Of a stretch of 20,933 nt of DNA, positions 2 through 16,356 are shown piece after piece. Under the pieces are notes generated by a model. That model saw nothing but the letters and a program-made list of their open reading frames with translations, was not told the DNA's origin and searched no databases. The translations under genes and the position numbers were made by a program. Each line of letters opens with the position of its first letter. The first letter of the stretch is position 1. This DNA comes from a virus, in the IMG/VR virus record IMGVR_UViG_3300033816_000078, positions 1 through 20,933 of that record; one strand, given 5' to 3'.

Positions 2-418
2 CAAGGGGACTGCCTGCTCGTGCAGGAACTACTGTACTCCACGGGCCTGACCAACCAAGACATCGCAGACAAGTTGCGGTCGCTGGGCATCACAAGGGCT
101 TGGGAGATCGTTGCGGACTCTGCCGAACCCAAGAGCATCGAGGAAATCTACCGCTTGGGGTTCAACATCAAGCCAGCGGAGAAAGGCCCCGACTCGGTCA
201 GGAACGGGATAGACATCTTGAAACGCTTTAAATTGCAGGTTACCAAGGACTCGACCAACCTCATCAAGGAACTGCGGTCCTACACTTGGGCGACCGATAA
301 GGAGGGCAAGAACACGGGTGTCCCCATTGATTCCTTCAACCACGCCTGCGATGCGATGCGGTATGTGGCACTTAACAAGTTAAGGGTCAGTAACTCGGGG
401 AAGTATGTTGTTGTGTAA
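2..418 (+). CDS. terL: Terminase large subunit, C-terminal nuclease part (5' truncated)
   Basis: This is the end of the large terminase, the motor that pumps phage DNA into proheads and cuts it. The reading frame is open from the window edge (QGDCLLV precedes the internal GTG at 20), so the gene starts outside and GTG 20 is not its start. The visible part is the RNase H-like nuclease domain. It shows the family pattern ELLYSTGLTNQDI, then VADSAEPKSIEEI with the Asp codon at 116-118, and DSFNHACDAMRY with the Asp codon at 350-352; these Asp residues match metal-binding positions of the family. The ATPase domain is not in the window. Its position at the front of the structural block fits. The family call is strong; catalytic roles are inferred from motif position only. 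Confidence 0.9.
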   Translation, partial: QGDCLLVQELLYSTGLTNQDIADKLRSLGITRAWEIVADSAEPKSIEEIYRLGFNIKPAEKGPDSVRNGIDILKRFKLQVTKDSTNLIKELRSYTWATDKEGKNTGVPIDSFNHACDAMRYVALNKLRVSNSGKYVVV

Positions 419-1963: not shown

Positions 1964-2614
1964 ATGGGCATCCCCGTCATCATCAACAACCGCAACCTGC
2001 TGACATGGCCCAAGGCGATGGTCAGGGACTTGACCAAGTGGGAGGGGATTGGGGACATCTACATCGTTGACAACGGTTCAACCTACGAGCCATTGCTGGA
2101 GTGGTACGCCACCAACCCATGCAAGGTCGTAATGCTTGGCGAAAACTTGGGCCATCAAGCCCCATGGACTTCGGGATTGGTACAACAACTGGGAGAGCCG
2201 TTCTATGCGGTTACAGACCCGGACCTTGACCTTTACAAGACCAGCAAGCGGACGATTCCCATGTGCTTGGAGTGGTTGCAACAATTCCCCCAAGCAGGCA
2301 AGGTCGGCCTGTCGCTCCGATGGGATGACGTGCCTCCAAGGTCGTCGTACTACACTCACGTTAACAATTACGAAGCGACTCGTCAGCGGAACTCACGGGT
2401 CATCATGGCAGCAAGGGTTGATGTGCCTATCGATACGACTTTTGCCGTTTACAATCGGCAGGAGTACTTTATCGGTGGGGTTTCGTTGCTTGAGTCAGCG
2501 AGGCACATTCCTTGGTATTACTCCGAGAAAGAACGCAAGGCTGATAAGGAGTTCAGCCAGTACCTTGCATCGGCATCGTCGGCATCGTCCTACAAAACCT
2601 TCTTGAAACTATGA
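1964..2614 (+). CDS. Family 2-like glycosyltransferase, 216 aa
   Basis: A GT-A fold glycosyltransferase. The nucleotide-binding part is visible as IYIVDNGST (residues 32-40), then GENLGH at 59-64, and a DXD-type metal-binding motif in TDPDLDL at 84-90. A C-terminal segment with IDTTFAVY (156-163) and HIPWYYSE (181-188) resembles acceptor-side motifs of GT2-like proteins. The C-terminus carries a low-complexity ASASSASS stretch encoded by repeated GCATCG units. The start ATG follows the methyltransferase stop by two bases (TCTAACCATG). Its stop overlaps the next gene (ATGA at 2611). It may decorate the virion or a host glycan. Confidence 0.8.
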   Translation: MGIPVIINNRNLLTWPKAMVRDLTKWEGIGDIYIVDNGSTYEPLLEWYATNPCKVVMLGENLGHQAPWTSGLVQQLGEPFYAVTDPDLDLYKTSKRTIPMCLEWLQQFPQAGKVGLSLRWDDVPPRSSYYTHVNNYEATRQRNSRVIMAARVDVPIDTTFAVYNRQEYFIGGVSLLESARHIPWYYSEKERKADKEFSQYLASASSASSYKTFLKL

Positions 2615-3180
2615 AACTCCAAGACCTAACGATTGACCAGTTCCAACGCATTGGAGCCATTGAGTTCAGCAGCGTTCTCGGGGACTACGACAAGCGTGCA
2701 GGGGTCGTTGCAATCGTTGAGGGGGTCGATATATCATTCGTGAGAGAGATGCCCGCCAAGAGCGTCCTAAAGCGTTACAAGGCCATTATCAGCGAGTGGA
2801 ACGCATTACCTGCCTTGGGTTACAAGCGGAAGTTCAAAGCCGGGGGCAAGTGGTGGATTCCGACGGTGTTCACGGATGAGTTGACGGCTGGGCAGTTGAT
2901 AGAGTTAATGGACGCAAACACCACGGACGAAAAACAACTGCTCCAAAACCTCCACCGAATCATGGCGACCTTGTGCAGGGAAGGAGGTCTATTCGGATTC
3001 TTTCCGAAGAAGTACGACGGGGCTGCCCATGCCGAGCGAGCCGAACTGATGAAGAAACACGCCAAGGTGGGCGACGTTTGGGGCGTTGTCAGTTTTTTTT
3101 TGCTAAGTTCAGAAAGTTACTTGAAAGTTTTGAGCGACTATTCCAAGCACCTGATGAAGACGGCCGAGGGGCTGACGTAG
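2611..3180 (+). CDS. Tail assembly chaperone, short (zero-frame) form, 189 aa
   Basis: Likely the Bacteroidota-phage counterpart of lambda gpG, which coats the tape measure protein during tail assembly. Supporting features are the segment KWWIPTVFTDELTAGQLIEL (residues 84-103), which recalls the short strand plus LTAGQ motif of such proteins, then LHRIMATLCREGG (115-127), a Y-D-A-A-R region, and a C-terminal VSFFLLSS at 160-167. The FF pair is encoded by a run of nine T at 3093-3101 in the correct phase for a -1 slip, with a long open -1 frame downstream. The gene overlaps the preceding glycosyltransferase by ATGA and lies before the tail genes. The assignment rests on pattern memory and frameshift architecture, so it is probable, not certain. 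Confidence 0.65.
   Translation: MKLQDLTIDQFQRIGAIEFSSVLGDYDKRAGVVAIVEGVDISFVREMPAKSVLKRYKAIISEWNALPALGYKRKFKAGGKWWIPTVFTDELTAGQLIELMDANTTDEKQLLQNLHRIMATLCREGGLFGFFPKKYDGAAHAERAELMKKHAKVGDVWGVVSFFLLSSESYLKVLSDYSKHLMKTAEGLT
3093..3101 (+). other. T9 slippery site for -1 programmed frameshift
   Basis: Zero-frame codons are AGT TTT TTT TTG. The heptamer T TTT TTT at 3093-3099 is therefore in the canonical X XXY YYZ phase. A -1 slip would continue as TTT GCT AAG and remain open to the stop at 3354-3356. This would join residues 1-163 of the 2611 gene to 85 more residues, giving a 248 aa fusion. I did not identify a definite stimulatory structure downstream. Confidence 0.6.
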
Positions 3181-3356
3181 GTCCTCTTGCCGGGTACGGA
3201 TGGCTGATGGTCGTTTGGAGGATGGCAAACAAAGACGTTCTCAAGTTTGATGCCATCTTTGCGATGAAGGCGGTGGAGTTCTTGAACTACGCCCTCCTGA
3301 TTCACGACATTTTGGAAGCGGAACGGATGGAAGCGGAAAGAGCAAGACGCAGATAG
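3099..3356 (+). CDS. -1 frame extension of the tail assembly chaperone (T-like domain)
   Basis: This frame overlaps the end of the zero-frame chaperone and continues 176 bases past its stop with protein-like sequence. It begins FAKFRKLLESFERLF after the slip, then has AGYGWLMVVWRMANKDVLKFD and an alpha-helical tail ending in an E/R-rich stretch (MEAERARRR). A GYGW...ANGD/NKD..KF pattern is what I recall from the second half of chaperone fusions in Bacteroidota phages. There is no good independent start near the overlap; the first in-frame ATG is at 3207. Expression as a frameshift fusion, like lambda gpGT, explains it best. A stand-alone short protein from ATG 3207 is the alternative. Confidence 0.55.
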   Translation, partial: FAKFRKLLESFERLFQAPDEDGRGADVGPLAGYGWLMVVWRMANKDVLKFDAIFAMKAVEFLNYALLIHDILEAERMEAERARRR

Positions 3357-3387: not shown

Positions 3388-3987
3388 ATGGAGTTCAATG
3401 TCTTTGTAGGAGGTTCAGGAAAGAAACTGACCGACATCCAAAGGGAGGCCCTTGCCGACTTTGGTGTGGCTCTTGAAGATGGGGCCATTGAAAACAAGTC
3501 CCATGCATTGGTTGTCAAGTGGCTTGAAGGAGTGGTCCGCCTTGCGAAGGAGAACCTTGCCAAGTCGAACGCCATCGCAAGCAATGCCCTCTCGCAGTCC
3601 ATCACCGTTACCCCGATATCCCTAAACGACCAGTCCTTCGTTGTCGCTATTGAGGCAGCGGATTACTGGAAGTTCGTGGACCTCGGTGTCAAGGGCGCAA
3701 ACTCAACCAAACGTGCGCCTAACTCTCCCTTCCAATATAGGGACAAGCGTCCACCTATCCGCCCGATTCAGGAGTGGATTGCGTTCAAGGGCATTCCTCT
3801 GGAAGGCAGGGACAAGAAGGCAGCAAACAGATCCTTTGCCATCAACATCGCCAACAAGATTCGGAGGGAAGGTCTGCGAGCGACCAACTTTATGAGCAAC
3901 GCAGTATCCCCCGAAATGATAGAGGTCTTGACCGAGAATATCGCAGAGGTCCTCGGCAAATCCATAAGCGTAGCAACAACAAGATAA
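3388..3987 (+). CDS. Tail completion / HK97 gp10-like virion protein, 199 aa
   Basis: Probably a small neck or tail-completion protein. The recognisable part is the centre: AADYWKFVDLGVKG (about residues 90-103), SPFQYRDKRPPIRPIQEWI (112-130) and FAINIANKIRREGLRATNFM (about 150-169). This order, with an aromatic strand, a loop and a terminal helix, recalls the gp10-like tail-completion fold. The N-terminal region (10-60) is predicted helical. It is the first gene after the ACATTTAC element and is followed, after one base, by the 3989 gene. Structural placement is supported by context; the specific role is an inference. Confidence 0.55.
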   Translation: MEFNVFVGGSGKKLTDIQREALADFGVALEDGAIENKSHALVVKWLEGVVRLAKENLAKSNAIASNALSQSITVTPISLNDQSFVVAIEAADYWKFVDLGVKGANSTKRAPNSPFQYRDKRPPIRPIQEWIAFKGIPLEGRDKKAANRSFAINIANKIRREGLRATNFMSNAVSPEMIEVLTENIAEVLGKSISVATTR

Positions 3988-10433: not shown

Positions 10434-11354
10434 ATGGCATATTCGTTCACAGGATTAACCTCCTACACCGACCAAGAGAGGCTTCCTCTCATCACCAAGG
10501 CCGTGTTCTCGGCCCGTTCAGCGTCTTTGTTCACCAAGCAGGTGGGCATCAAGTTCGCTGCTGCTCTCAACCTCATGGACACCGATGCTTTGATTCAAAG
10601 CGGTGATACCTGCGGTTACGAAACTTCCGGCACGACTGCCTTCACCCAGCGGAATATCACCGTTGGACGCATGAAGGTGCAGGAAACCCTTTGCCCACGT
10701 TCTTTGGAACAATACTGGATGCAGACCCAGTTGACCGCTGGTTCTACCTACGATGGCGTTCCTTTCGAGCAGGCATTCAGCGAGCAGAAGGCACTTCGTA
10801 TCGCAGAGGCTTTGGAGAACGCAATTTGGAAGGGTAACGCTTACTTCAGCGGTGTTAACCAACTCTTGAACGCTGCATCGGGTTCTACCATCAGCGGTAA
10901 CACTGGTGCGGTTTCTGCCTCCGTTGGTATCACCACGAGCAACGCAATCGCCATCTTCGACGGCATCTACAACCAAATTCCACAGGCCATCCTTACTCGG
11001 AACGACCTCGTTATCTTCTGCGGTTGGGACAACTTCCGTACCTTGCTTGGTGCTTTCAAGTCCGCTACAGCGGTTATGTACAACCAAGTTGACTTGGCTG
11101 GCCTTGCGGATGGCGACATCATGTATCCCGGCACAAACGTCCGTGTCATTGCAGTCCCCGGATTGACCGGAACGAACCGCATCGTTTCGTCTTACCTCGG
11201 CAACTTCTTCTACGGAACCGACTTGTTGAGTGATGAGGAGCAGTTCTCAATCTGGTTCTCCAAAGACAACGATCAGGTACGCTTCCAAGCAGCCTTCAAA
11301 GCAGGTGTCCAAATCGCTTACCCCGACTTGGTTGTTGACTTCCGCTTGACCTAA
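10434..11354 (+). CDS. Major capsid protein (HK97-like fold), 306 aa
   Basis: Main shell protein. Follows the scaffold after a 21-base gap (start context CCATTAACAATGG). Features consistent with an HK97-fold capsid protein of Bacteroidota phages: an N-terminal helical region (10-40), an extended central part with TFERNI-like TQRNITVGRMK, a helix with QAFSEQKALRIAEALENAIW (about 120-139), and a C-terminal domain with VRVIAVPGL (about 236-244), SYLGNFFYGTDLL (about 253-265) and the last strands VRFQAAFKAGVQIAYPDLVVDF. Its own strong terminator follows at 11362, as expected for a highly expressed gene. The call rests on neighbours (protease and scaffold) and pattern. Confidence 0.85.
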   Translation: MAYSFTGLTSYTDQERLPLITKAVFSARSASLFTKQVGIKFAAALNLMDTDALIQSGDTCGYETSGTTAFTQRNITVGRMKVQETLCPRSLEQYWMQTQLTAGSTYDGVPFEQAFSEQKALRIAEALENAIWKGNAYFSGVNQLLNAASGSTISGNTGAVSASVGITTSNAIAIFDGIYNQIPQAILTRNDLVIFCGWDNFRTLLGAFKSATAVMYNQVDLAGLADGDIMYPGTNVRVIAVPGLTGTNRIVSSYLGNFFYGTDLLSDEEQFSIWFSKDNDQVRFQAAFKAGVQIAYPDLVVDFRLT

Positions 11355-11361
11355 TGTGTAG

Positions 11362-11389
11362 GGGGGAGGGAAACCTCCCCCTGCTTTTT
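11362..11389 (+). terminator. Rho-independent terminator after the major capsid gene
   Basis: An 8-bp GC stem, GGGGGAGG (11362-11369) pairing with CCTCCCCC (11374-11381), closes a GAAA tetraloop. It is followed by TGC and a run of five T (11385-11389). It begins 7 bases after the capsid stop. Stem, loop and T-run all fit a strong terminator. Confidence 0.85.
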
Positions 11390-11421
11390 GTTCTCTTGAA
11401 ACTTAAAACCAAAACACACAT

Positions 11422-11952
11422 ATGTCCTGCTCCTTAACAACTGGCTACGCCCTTGGATGCCGAGATTCAGTCGGTGGCATCAAAACAATTTACGTCCAAT
11501 CCTTCATCCCAACGGGGTCCTGCAATGCCAACCTTTCAGGTGCGGTTACAGGGTTCACGGGTTACGCTTCGGGTGGGTTCTTCGAGTATGACTTGACCAA
11601 GGCTACGTCCTCTTTGACTGAAACCTTGAACGCAAGCATCGAGAACGGCTCGGTTTATTACACCCCCGAAGTAACGTTCACCATCAACAAACTGCAAGTC
11701 GCAGTCCGCAACGAACTCCGTCTACTGGTACGCAACCGTGTCATCGTCATCGTTCAAGACAACAACAACCGTTACTGGTTGTTAGGCTCTGCCAACGGCT
11801 TGGAAGCAACCGCTGGAACCGCTGGAACTGGTACTGCCTTCGGAGATAGAAGTGGCTACGAGTTGACCTTGACCGGAATGGAACCTGACCCGATGTTCCT
11901 GATTGCATCCACAGTCTTTGCACCATCGACTACGCAGATACTCGGCTCGTAG
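11422..11952 (+). CDS. Tail tube-like / abundant virion protein, 176 aa
   Basis: Beta-rich protein probably forming an abundant part of the virion. Seen: Cys-containing N-terminus (MSCSLTTGYALGCRD), a Thr/Ser/Gly-rich first half, then a strand-rich central part (VRNRVIVIVQDNNNRYWLLGSANGLEA) and TGTGTAFGDRSGYELTLTGMEPDPMFLI at the end. The last part recalls major tail tube proteins of Bacteroidota phages (DNNGRYWLLG...GTGxxxGDxxGYxLxLxGxE). It follows the capsid gene but is separated by a terminator, and it is followed by another terminator-like hairpin, so its level is probably set on its own. Alternatives: head decoration protein. No Shine-Dalgarno sequence before ATG 11422 (leader AAAACACACAT). 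Confidence 0.5.
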   Translation: MSCSLTTGYALGCRDSVGGIKTIYVQSFIPTGSCNANLSGAVTGFTGYASGGFFEYDLTKATSSLTETLNASIENGSVYYTPEVTFTINKLQVAVRNELRLLVRNRVIVIVQDNNNRYWLLGSANGLEATAGTAGTGTAFGDRSGYELTLTGMEPDPMFLIASTVFAPSTTQILGS

Positions 11953-13535: not shown

Positions 13536-14098
13536 GCGTACAAACACGAAGCCAACTCCAAGCGAGTGCCTTAACCATTACCAACGAAACCGCTGCCGGG
13601 GCCAACACCGCATCCCGTGTGGGCGGATTGTTCGACGACCTTGCAGACACCGCAACGCTTGACATTGAGCGAGGCTATGCTTCGGTTGCTACGGCTGCCG
13701 ATAGGTCATTTGTAACGACCAATAATGCTTTTGACAAATTACTGATTCAAACAGGCAACAACATTCTATCAACCAACAACTTTTCGAGAGTTGCAACAAT
13801 TGCGGGGCCATCAATCACCTACACGGGGACGCTATCCGCTGCAATTAGGGTGAGTGCAAATCTAACTTTTTCGGGGGCAAATGGCGATGATTACGTTTGG
13901 GCTATTTACAAAAATGACGTACAAATCACCTCATCTGAAGCACTAGTTACTTTGAGCCATACCAACGGCCATCAAGTTGTTTTGGAAACCTTTTTGATAG
14001 CAAATACCAATGATGAATTTTCAATCTATGTAAAATCAATTGATGGTGTTAGGACGATTACCATCTCATCCATCAGTTTTAATGCTCACACGCTATGA
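13532..14098 (+). CDS. Virion protein with C-terminal beta-sandwich, 188 aa
   Basis: The N-terminal part (residues 4-45) contains TRSQLQASALTITN and a helical GLFDDLADTATL, a stalk-type start recalling phage fibre or decoration proteins. The C-terminal 80 or so residues form a strand-rich domain (ISAAIRV-like, SANLTFSGANGDDYVWAIYK, then DEFSIYVKSIDGVRTITISSI), which resembles C1q/TNF-like jelly-roll heads seen on trimeric phage proteins. Both ends overlap neighbours by ATGA (13532 and 14095). Codon use and AT-richness of the second half look more AT-rich than neighbouring genes, hinting at domain exchange. Role unknown; a decoration or fibre-like protein is likely. Confidence 0.5.
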   Translation: MSVQTRSQLQASALTITNETAAGANTASRVGGLFDDLADTATLDIERGYASVATAADRSFVTTNNAFDKLLIQTGNNILSTNNFSRVATIAGPSITYTGTLSAAIRVSANLTFSGANGDDYVWAIYKNDVQITSSEALVTLSHTNGHQVVLETFLIANTNDEFSIYVKSIDGVRTITISSISFNAHTL

Positions 14099-16356
14099 GT
14101 ACCAAATCTACTCAACACTTCACCCAATGGCTTGGGATAGAGCATAAGGTCCCCGTGATGCTGGAGAACCGCTCCGGCAAGTACATCACCTACGGCTTTG
14201 CGAACGAATACCCCTACTACCTGCTTGACAACTATCGCAGGTCATCCAAGCACAACGCCATCGTGAATGGGAAAGTGAATTATATCATGGGCGGAGGATG
14301 GCAGGCAGGGGATGACTTGACCGTGGAGCAGCAGGCCCGATTCATCAAGTTCTTCGACGGAATGTCAAGCACCGAGGACCTGAACGACATCACCGAGAAA
14401 CTGGTTCTTGACTTAGAGATTTTCAACGGCTTTGCGGTCGCAGTTACTTGGTCCAAACTTGGGACCATCGCCAAGATGGAGCACGTCCCGTTTGAGAAAA
14501 TCAGGGTGGACAAGGAAGAGAAGATGTTCCAAGTTGCTGACTGGTACAACGACGATATGATGCAGTTGTTCCCCAAGGTCGGGGACATCGAGAAAATCCC
14601 TGCATTCGACCCGGAGAACCGCCTCGGTAAGCAGTTGTTCTACTATCGGGTGTACGCAGCAGGCGTGAAGCACTATCCTCTACCCGAATACATCGGAGGG
14701 AATGCGTGGATTGAGGCAGACGTACAGGTCGCCAACTTCCACAACAACAACCTCCGCAACAACTTTTGGGGGGGTTACTTGATAAACTTCAACAACGGGA
14801 TTCCTACACCCGAAGAACAGGGCGACATTGAGAGGCAGATTAAACGTAAGTTTTCAGGAACCGACAACGCTGGTCGCTTCGTTGTAACCTTCAACGACGA
14901 TGCAGCCAAGGCTCCGACACTTGAACCGCTGACTCCGTCCGATATGGATAAGCAGTTCGAGATCTTGAACAAGGCCATTCAGCAAGAGATATTCATCGCC
15001 CATCGTGTAACCAACCCGATGCTTTTTGGGGTGAAGACCGAGGGCCAATTGGGTGGACGCAACGAATTGGTCGAGGCTTACGAACTATTCAAGGCCACCT
15101 ACGTCAACGACCGGGTGCAGAAGGTCGAAAGAATGATAAATTACTTGGGGTCTTTCAACGGCGTGGAAGGCATGGAGTTAATTCCTACCAATCCCATCAC
15201 GGAGCAGTTGAGCGAACAGGCTCTCCTTCAAGCCATGACCCCAGCAGAACTGCGTGAGAAGGCAGGCTTGCCACCGATTGAAATCAAGACCGAATCAAGC
15301 GTTCAAGACGTTATCACGGCTATCAATTCACTCTCTCCGTTGGTTGCCAACAAGGTCTTGGAATCCATGTCAGCCAACGAAATTAGGGCCTTGGTGTCCT
15401 TGCCTGCAAAGGCAGAGGGTTCGGGTCTTGCAGGAGCAACTGCAGCCGTAGAGGTCAGCCCTGAACCTACTGCACCGCAAGGCTTGGCATCAAACGACAA
15501 CATCAAAAAGTTGTCGGGCAGGGAGTATCAAAACCTGATGCGAATCGTGCGTCAGTATATGCAGGAGAAAATCACTCTTGAAATGGCTCGTACCATGTTG
15601 TCAGCCGGCTTCGGTCTATCAGCCCAAGAGATTGACACGATGCTCGGAGTGCAGGCCCAAGAGTTCAGCGAACCGACTTGGGGCCAAGATGACGACGAAG
15701 ACTACGGATGGGGCGAAGAAGAATTTAAGGTCTTGGAGGTCGTTGCAAGCAAGTTCGGATGCCATGCCGACGACTACCACGTCATGCACTCCAAGCCAAT
15801 GCGGTTCGATGCCAACATCGAAGAAAACATCCGTTTAGCCTTTGCCGAACTGGGCGAGGAAGAAAAGGAACTGGACAAGAAGATTGAGGCGTATCGCAAG
15901 AAGAACCGGGACGCAAGCGTTGAAGAAATGGCCAAGGAGTTCGGGGTCAGCAAGGCGAAGGTCGCCAAGCGTGTCGCCTACTTGATAACCAAGGACCGCT
16001 ACCCAATCAGCAGGGCGGTGGACAAGATTGCCGAGCAGAACCTACCCAAGAACGTGAAGGAAGTTGCCGAGCCAGTCTTGGAAGTCCGCTACAAGTACGC
16101 ATGGGCCACAGGATTCAGCAACAAGGACAAAGGCTCGAGCCGTGAGTTCTGCAAGGTGATGCTTGACTTAGCCGGGCAAGGCAAGGTTTACACGAGGGAG
16201 GACATCGACGGGATTTCTGCGATCATGGGATATTCCGTATGGAATCGCAGAGGCGGTTGGTATCACACACCGAGCGGAGTAAACAGGCCACAATGCAGGC
16301 ACGTATGGGAGCAGCAGTTGGTAATCCGCAAAGGCAATAAAATCACGAAGGCATGA
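14095..16356 (+). CDS. Portal protein with C-terminal HTH-like and MuF-like extension, 753 aa
   Basis: The N-terminal 390 or so residues fit a portal, the dodecameric ring through which DNA enters: NYRRSSKHNAIVNGKVNYIMGGG (46-68), LVLDLEIFNGFAVAV (103-117), an LITR-like SDMDKQFEILNKAIQQEIFIAHRVTNPMLFG (282-312), and GRNELVEAYELF (321-332). Portals are usually 400-550 residues. The extra part has an acidic stretch (DDDEDYGWGEEE, 532-543), an HTH-like segment SVEEMAKEFGVSKAKVAKRV (608-627) and a C-terminal domain with SREFCKVM (682-689), NRRGGWYH (717-724) and CRHVW (734-738). That last pattern resembles the C-terminus of Mu F-like/SPP1 gp7 head morphogenesis proteins. Overlaps both neighbours (ATGA). 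Confidence 0.8.
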   Translation: MSTKSTQHFTQWLGIEHKVPVMLENRSGKYITYGFANEYPYYLLDNYRRSSKHNAIVNGKVNYIMGGGWQAGDDLTVEQQARFIKFFDGMSSTEDLNDITEKLVLDLEIFNGFAVAVTWSKLGTIAKMEHVPFEKIRVDKEEKMFQVADWYNDDMMQLFPKVGDIEKIPAFDPENRLGKQLFYYRVYAAGVKHYPLPEYIGGNAWIEADVQVANFHNNNLRNNFWGGYLINFNNGIPTPEEQGDIERQIKRKFSGTDNAGRFVVTFNDDAAKAPTLEPLTPSDMDKQFEILNKAIQQEIFIAHRVTNPMLFGVKTEGQLGGRNELVEAYELFKATYVNDRVQKVERMINYLGSFNGVEGMELIPTNPITEQLSEQALLQAMTPAELREKAGLPPIEIKTESSVQDVITAINSLSPLVANKVLESMSANEIRALVSLPAKAEGSGLAGATAAVEVSPEPTAPQGLASNDNIKKLSGREYQNLMRIVRQYMQEKITLEMARTMLSAGFGLSAQEIDTMLGVQAQEFSEPTWGQDDDEDYGWGEEEFKVLEVVASKFGCHADDYHVMHSKPMRFDANIEENIRLAFAELGEEEKELDKKIEAYRKKNRDASVEEMAKEFGVSKAKVAKRVAYLITKDRYPISRAVDKIAEQNLPKNVKEVAEPVLEVRYKYAWATGFSNKDKGSSREFCKVMLDLAGQGKVYTREDIDGISAIMGYSVWNRRGGWYHTPSGVNRPQCRHVWEQQLVIRKGNKITKA

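Follow-up and report, generated by a model that had tools for sequence, protein, structure and literature searches.

A run of nine T residues (T9) in an uncultured phage, whose relatives infect Bacteroidota, joins two overlapping reading frames into what sequence comparison indicates, with a probability of roughly 0.95, to be one gene with two programmed products, the longer of which depends on a slip at the run. Default expression would yield a 189-aa protein, and slippage on T9 would yield a 248-aa fusion. In the window, that is, the whole stretch of 20,933 nucleotides analysed here, the zero-frame ORF (189 aa) starts at the ATG at 2611 and ends with the stop codon at 3178-3180, T9 lies in the zero-frame phase AGT TTT TTT TTG, and the -1 frame stays open from the run through its stop codon at 3354-3356, giving the junction ...SFF-FAKFR... 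in the predicted fusion. A preliminary description of this DNA had reported T9 at 3093-3101 in the X XXY YYZ phase with a -1 frame, open for some 85 codons to 3356, which the sequence confirms; it had also predicted products of 189 and 248 aa from a programmed -1 fusion, and two coding frames that meet at T9 support it. The mechanically called -1 ORF starts at a GTG at 2973, upstream of T9. The coordinates of the gene and of its conserved neighbours are collected in the table.

Table. Features of the T9 gene and of its surroundings in the window (aa, amino acids)
Feature	Position	Strand	Evidence
Large terminase, C-terminal part; conserved upstream neighbour	20..418	+	tblastn synteny
Zero-frame ORF, G-like short product	2611..3180	+	164 synonymous versus 36 non-synonymous zero-frame changes before the run
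Putative T9 slippage run	3093..3101	+	exactly T9 in 312/315 distinct relatives, T10 in 3
In-phase heptamer T TTT TTT (ribosomal reading)	3093..3099	+	sequence
Second in-phase heptamer T TTT TTG, identical to the phage P2 site	3096-3102	+	sequence; P2 precedent (PMC3091744)
Dual-coded overlap, zero and -1 frames	3102..3180	+	
-1 frame extension, conserved T-like domain	3102..3356	+	C-only part with 69 synonymous and 9 non-synonymous changes; homologous to P12024-like -1 extensions
Third (+1) frame stop codon just 3' of the run	3104..3106	+	at most 3 codons from the run in 314/315 distinct relatives
HK97 gp10-like head-tail protein; conserved downstream neighbour	3388..3987	+	
Tape-measure-like protein, 519 aa	7611..9170	+	N-terminal part resembles Bacteroidota phage tape measures

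Relatives were sought in viral contigs, by protein-based scans and one scan for a DNA pattern, and in annotated phage records. Of the loci recovered in this way, 381 have a legible run, and 315 of these are distinct around the site. Among the latter, T9 occurs in 312 and T10 in three, and the run is never shorter, interrupted or swapped for another slippery heptamer; both frames are open, and the C-terminal domain never lies in the zero frame. Clade A, the window's own, groups sequences with at least 79% identity to the window over the shared N-terminal part and the same run phase AGT TTT TTT TTG. Clades B and C have about 15-26% identity to the window and the phase NTT TTT TTT followed by TAY, TGG or TTC, and the length of the run is constant although the flanking codons differ between clade A and clades B/C. 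No second run of nine or more T or A residues is present within the 20.9 kb window, and T9 is the sole T run of this size on the gene-encoding strand across 1.19 Mb of clade A relatives (53% GC), far beyond what chance would produce.

Clade B includes the cultured Nonlabens phages P12024S and P12024L, which carry the same T9 site and in which the halves of the T9 gene are annotated as separate genes, gp38 and gp39; the corresponding region of P12024S (23136-23830; locus L166:1237-1931) reads as one T9-frameshifted gene. Profile comparison of clade A with clade B by hhalign gives E values of 1e-7 for the N-terminal parts and 6e-8 for the -1 parts, and both domains are homologous between clades down to about 20% identity. 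The T-like domain of the window follows the motif FR..LL...F..LF ... GYGW ... AxxD...F ... L, and the clade B consensus of the C-terminal domain, FFLSFR.RL...Y..LF...F..WGWY.S.YA.AKGD...FE..TKL...CL..L..E.., has as its counterpart in the window FFFAKFRKLLESFERLF...GYGWLMVVWRMANKDVLKFDAIFAMKAVEFLNYALLI. Searches of GTDB genome contigs found no relatives, and those of cultured phage records found none for the window proteins, P12024S/L alone being reached, via neighbouring genes. Three candidates were set aside: Flavobacterium phage 6H, a weak fold match in which the frames at the site lack a clean T9 arrangement, and an A10 run in gp56 of Parabacteroides phage PDS1 and a T9 run in a Microcystis phage terminase gene, neither of which joins frames. 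Near the expected site of phage 6H (L233:10352-10927) the frames are shifted, which may reflect either another frameshift or an error in sequencing.

The substitution pattern in 63 unique clade A sequences follows the two frames in turn. Before T9, the zero frame shows 164 synonymous and 36 non-synonymous changes, and the -1 frame (11 and 189, respectively) does not evolve as coding; past the zero-frame stop, the -1 frame shows 69 and 9, and the frame signal disappears beyond the -1 stop. The extension, whose domain is conserved across all clades, is therefore protein-like, as had been proposed. Within one tight cluster, variable sites amount to 10% of the dual-coded stretch versus 25% of the N-terminal part. 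Beyond the run, the zero frame is open for 54-83 codons in 10 deeper-clade loci (P12024-like ones excluded), where these tails exceed the expectation from synonymous shuffling (P <=0.004 in nine, 0.02 in one), and the clade A tail is short (about 26 codons) and no longer than chance. At L199, L203, L231 and similar loci, neither the zero nor the -1 frame meets a stop for more than 80 codons past the run, an unusually long stretch of dual coding.

Selection acts on the nucleotides of the run itself. Phe codons elsewhere in the clade A gene are mostly TTC (912, against 91 TTT), and those in the run are always TTT. Silent changes were counted on a tree of 150 dereplicated clade B and C sequences, which carries the weight of the argument because clade A alone, through shared ancestry, has fewer changes everywhere: the two Phe codons of the run have 0 silent changes, and 11 other conserved two-fold sites have 6-33. 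In the same clades, the final base of the second run codon is invariant even though a change to C would leave both encoded residues as they are (Phe TTC, Leu CTR), and conservation of the protein therefore gives no explanation for it.

The preservation of T9 without substitution in more than 300 distinct relatives suggests a slip by RNA polymerase, and we lean towards the addition of one U on T9 during transcription as the event that gives rise to the fusion. Transcriptional slippage has been described at Tn with n above 8 (PMC3711429), and a conserved-length run of nine A or T among homologs is considered very likely to denote purposeful slippage (PMC1088944); the T9 gene holds such a conserved-length A/T homopolymer of about nine or more in all distinct relatives (312 T9 and three T10), and its invariant part includes a base that X XXY YY does not need. 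A third-frame stop lies within three codons of the run in 314 of the 315, which may perhaps be forced by the two coding frames. In Shigella mxiE, RNA polymerase adds an extra nucleotide at a U run and thereby joins two ORFs (PMC1088944). The T9 gene resembles it in having overlapping ORFs joined at a U run into a longer product, but mxiE is a cellular regulator, unrelated in protein sequence, in which slippage was measured, whereas polymerase slippage on T9 is proposed from sequence comparison.

Conventional -1 ribosomal frameshifting at U UUU UUU, or at U UUU UUG in the window's clade, as at E/E' of phage P2, is a serious contender, although the odds lie somewhat against it. P2 and its relatives slip at a U-rich site without downstream structure (PMC3091744), frameshifts in tail chaperone genes have been ascribed to the ribosome (PMC5009743, PMC10885494), and a strict ribosomal demand for U over C at the last base of the heptamer would explain part of the conservation. 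Every relative also has an in-phase heptamer, but this does not discriminate ribosome from polymerase because it is implied by any T9, and the start phase of the run was rejected as a discriminator for the same reason. Against a ribosomal slip, the heptamer's Z base never changes in clades B/C although a substitution there would be silent in either frame, and even very divergent relatives never use any other heptamer. Moreover, a search for conserved, pseudoknot-free RNA structure within 60 nt downstream found none (mean z about 0). As for P2 itself, its E/E+E' gene likewise makes a -1 fusion at a T-rich site (TTTTTTG) with no downstream hairpin, and the window has an in-phase T TTT TTG; in contrast, the P2 site has six T's, E is 91 aa long, and no sequence relation was found. 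Of the ribosomal slip advanced in the preliminary description, the in-phase heptamer thus stands, and the invariant full T9 with its doubly silent position fits the polymerase at least equally well. The fusion protein would be identical by either route.

Whichever machine slips, the programmed T9-dependent fusion probably acts as a pair of tail assembly chaperones, a role that is likely, and the best inference, from the arrangement and synteny of the gene. The arrangement is that of lambda G/GT, as had been noted: a short and a -1-extended product of one gene, nested with a shared N-terminal part and a unique C-terminal domain, in a tail gene block. It differs from lambda in the slippery site (GGGAAAG there, T9 here), and no sequence relation was detected. 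By analogy with lambda gpG and gpGT, whose roles have been described (PMC5009743), the short form would coat the tape measure protein, the long form would recruit the tail tube subunit via its extra domain, and the slip rate would set the ratio of short to long form. That a large and deeply divergent group of phages owes its tail-chaperone ratio to slippage of RNA polymerase on an unvarying T9, unlike lambda and P2, in which the ribosome shifts frame, is a more tentative proposal, whose chances we put a little short of even.

For both parts, AlphaFold predicts mostly helical folds (mean pLDDT 78.6 and 78.5). With these models, Foldseek retrieved 33 viral proteins at E <0.001, including P12024S gp38 and nearly all uncharacterised, and the hits to annotated tail chaperones, in BFVD, were weak (E values of 0.06 and 0.35). 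Nothing rose above noise in fold searches of PDB and VIA, which is no proof of a new fold. Pfam gave no match, and none of the PHROG families with a known function was matched significantly. Clade B relatives match PHROG_32199 (P12024S gp38) and PHROG_38404 (gp39), both without annotated function; these hold the two halves of the T9 gene as separate families, neither annotated as frameshifted or as a chaperone, and the window protein has diverged too far for a direct match to either. The two chaperone domains claimed previously are thus favoured by arrangement and synteny, but comparison with chaperones of solved structure or with annotation gave no significant match.

The conserved gene order is terminase, T9 gene, terminator-like and gp10-like genes, and tail genes, with a tail-terminator-like gene between the T9 gene and the gp10-like gene in clade B and a tape-measure-like gene after tail proteins in clade A. 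As is usual for frameshifted tail chaperone genes, that of lambda sits between the genes for the major tail protein and the tape measure, whereas the T9 gene does not adjoin the tape measure gene. It had been placed before the tape measure, and it is indeed upstream of the tape-like gene, but three genes lie between them and it directly follows the terminase module. A tail chaperone gene is not usually found next to the terminase and ahead of gp10-like and terminator-like genes, and this location, together with the lack of a significant family match to a tail chaperone, would suit a real T9 fusion that makes some other two-form assembly or virion protein. We consider this unlikely, given the nested two-form arrangement with a C-terminal extension, the mostly helical folds with their weak likeness to annotated tail chaperones, and the position of the gene in a head-tail and tail block.

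Several further features of the neighbourhood were recorded. Between the terminase and the T9 gene (712-2614), the window holds several ORFs resembling glycosyltransferase- or methyltransferase-type cargo; clade B relatives often have the terminase far nearer to the T9 gene. The portal-like protein (14095-16356) is long (753 aa), with a portal-family match limited to its N-terminal half; it aligns with P12024S in two pieces, which may mean that a second domain has been fused at the C-terminal end. At 10434-11952, a major capsid-like gene is immediately followed by a possible tail tube gene, as judged by reading the sequence, and the tape-like gene lies well away from this pair, which makes the order of modules unusual.

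It is very improbable that the -1 part is an independent gene translated from a start codon of its own, the view implied by the annotation of P12024S gp39, whose ATG overlaps the gp38 stop. No ATG, GTG or TTG occurs between the run and the [YW]GW core motif in 205 of 215 loci, as the preliminary description had anticipated in finding no good start for this part; the conservation of the -1 frame begins at the run itself (FF[LF].FR..L), and an independent gene would leave the selection on T9 unexplained. Comparison of the -1 frame among relatives, which had been suggested as a check, found it intact in all complete relatives and with no conserved start, in keeping with a fusion. Homopolymers are in general error-prone and mutable, but an assembly error, a pseudogene or phase variation by replication slippage is hardly credible for a run whose length is the same in 312 of 315 distinct sequences, drawn from many metagenomes, and in two cultured phages, with no in-frame fused (phase-on) relative seen and the -1 arrangement retained in the three T10 cases.

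One T9-frameshifted gene would thus unite two PHROG families of unknown function and assign a probable role to an unannotated gene that is present in hundreds of phage contigs. In the open-access literature, no report of transcriptional slippage for a tail chaperone was found, and this group of phages would offer a natural test of whether the ribosome or RNA polymerase sets the ratio of products in phage assembly.
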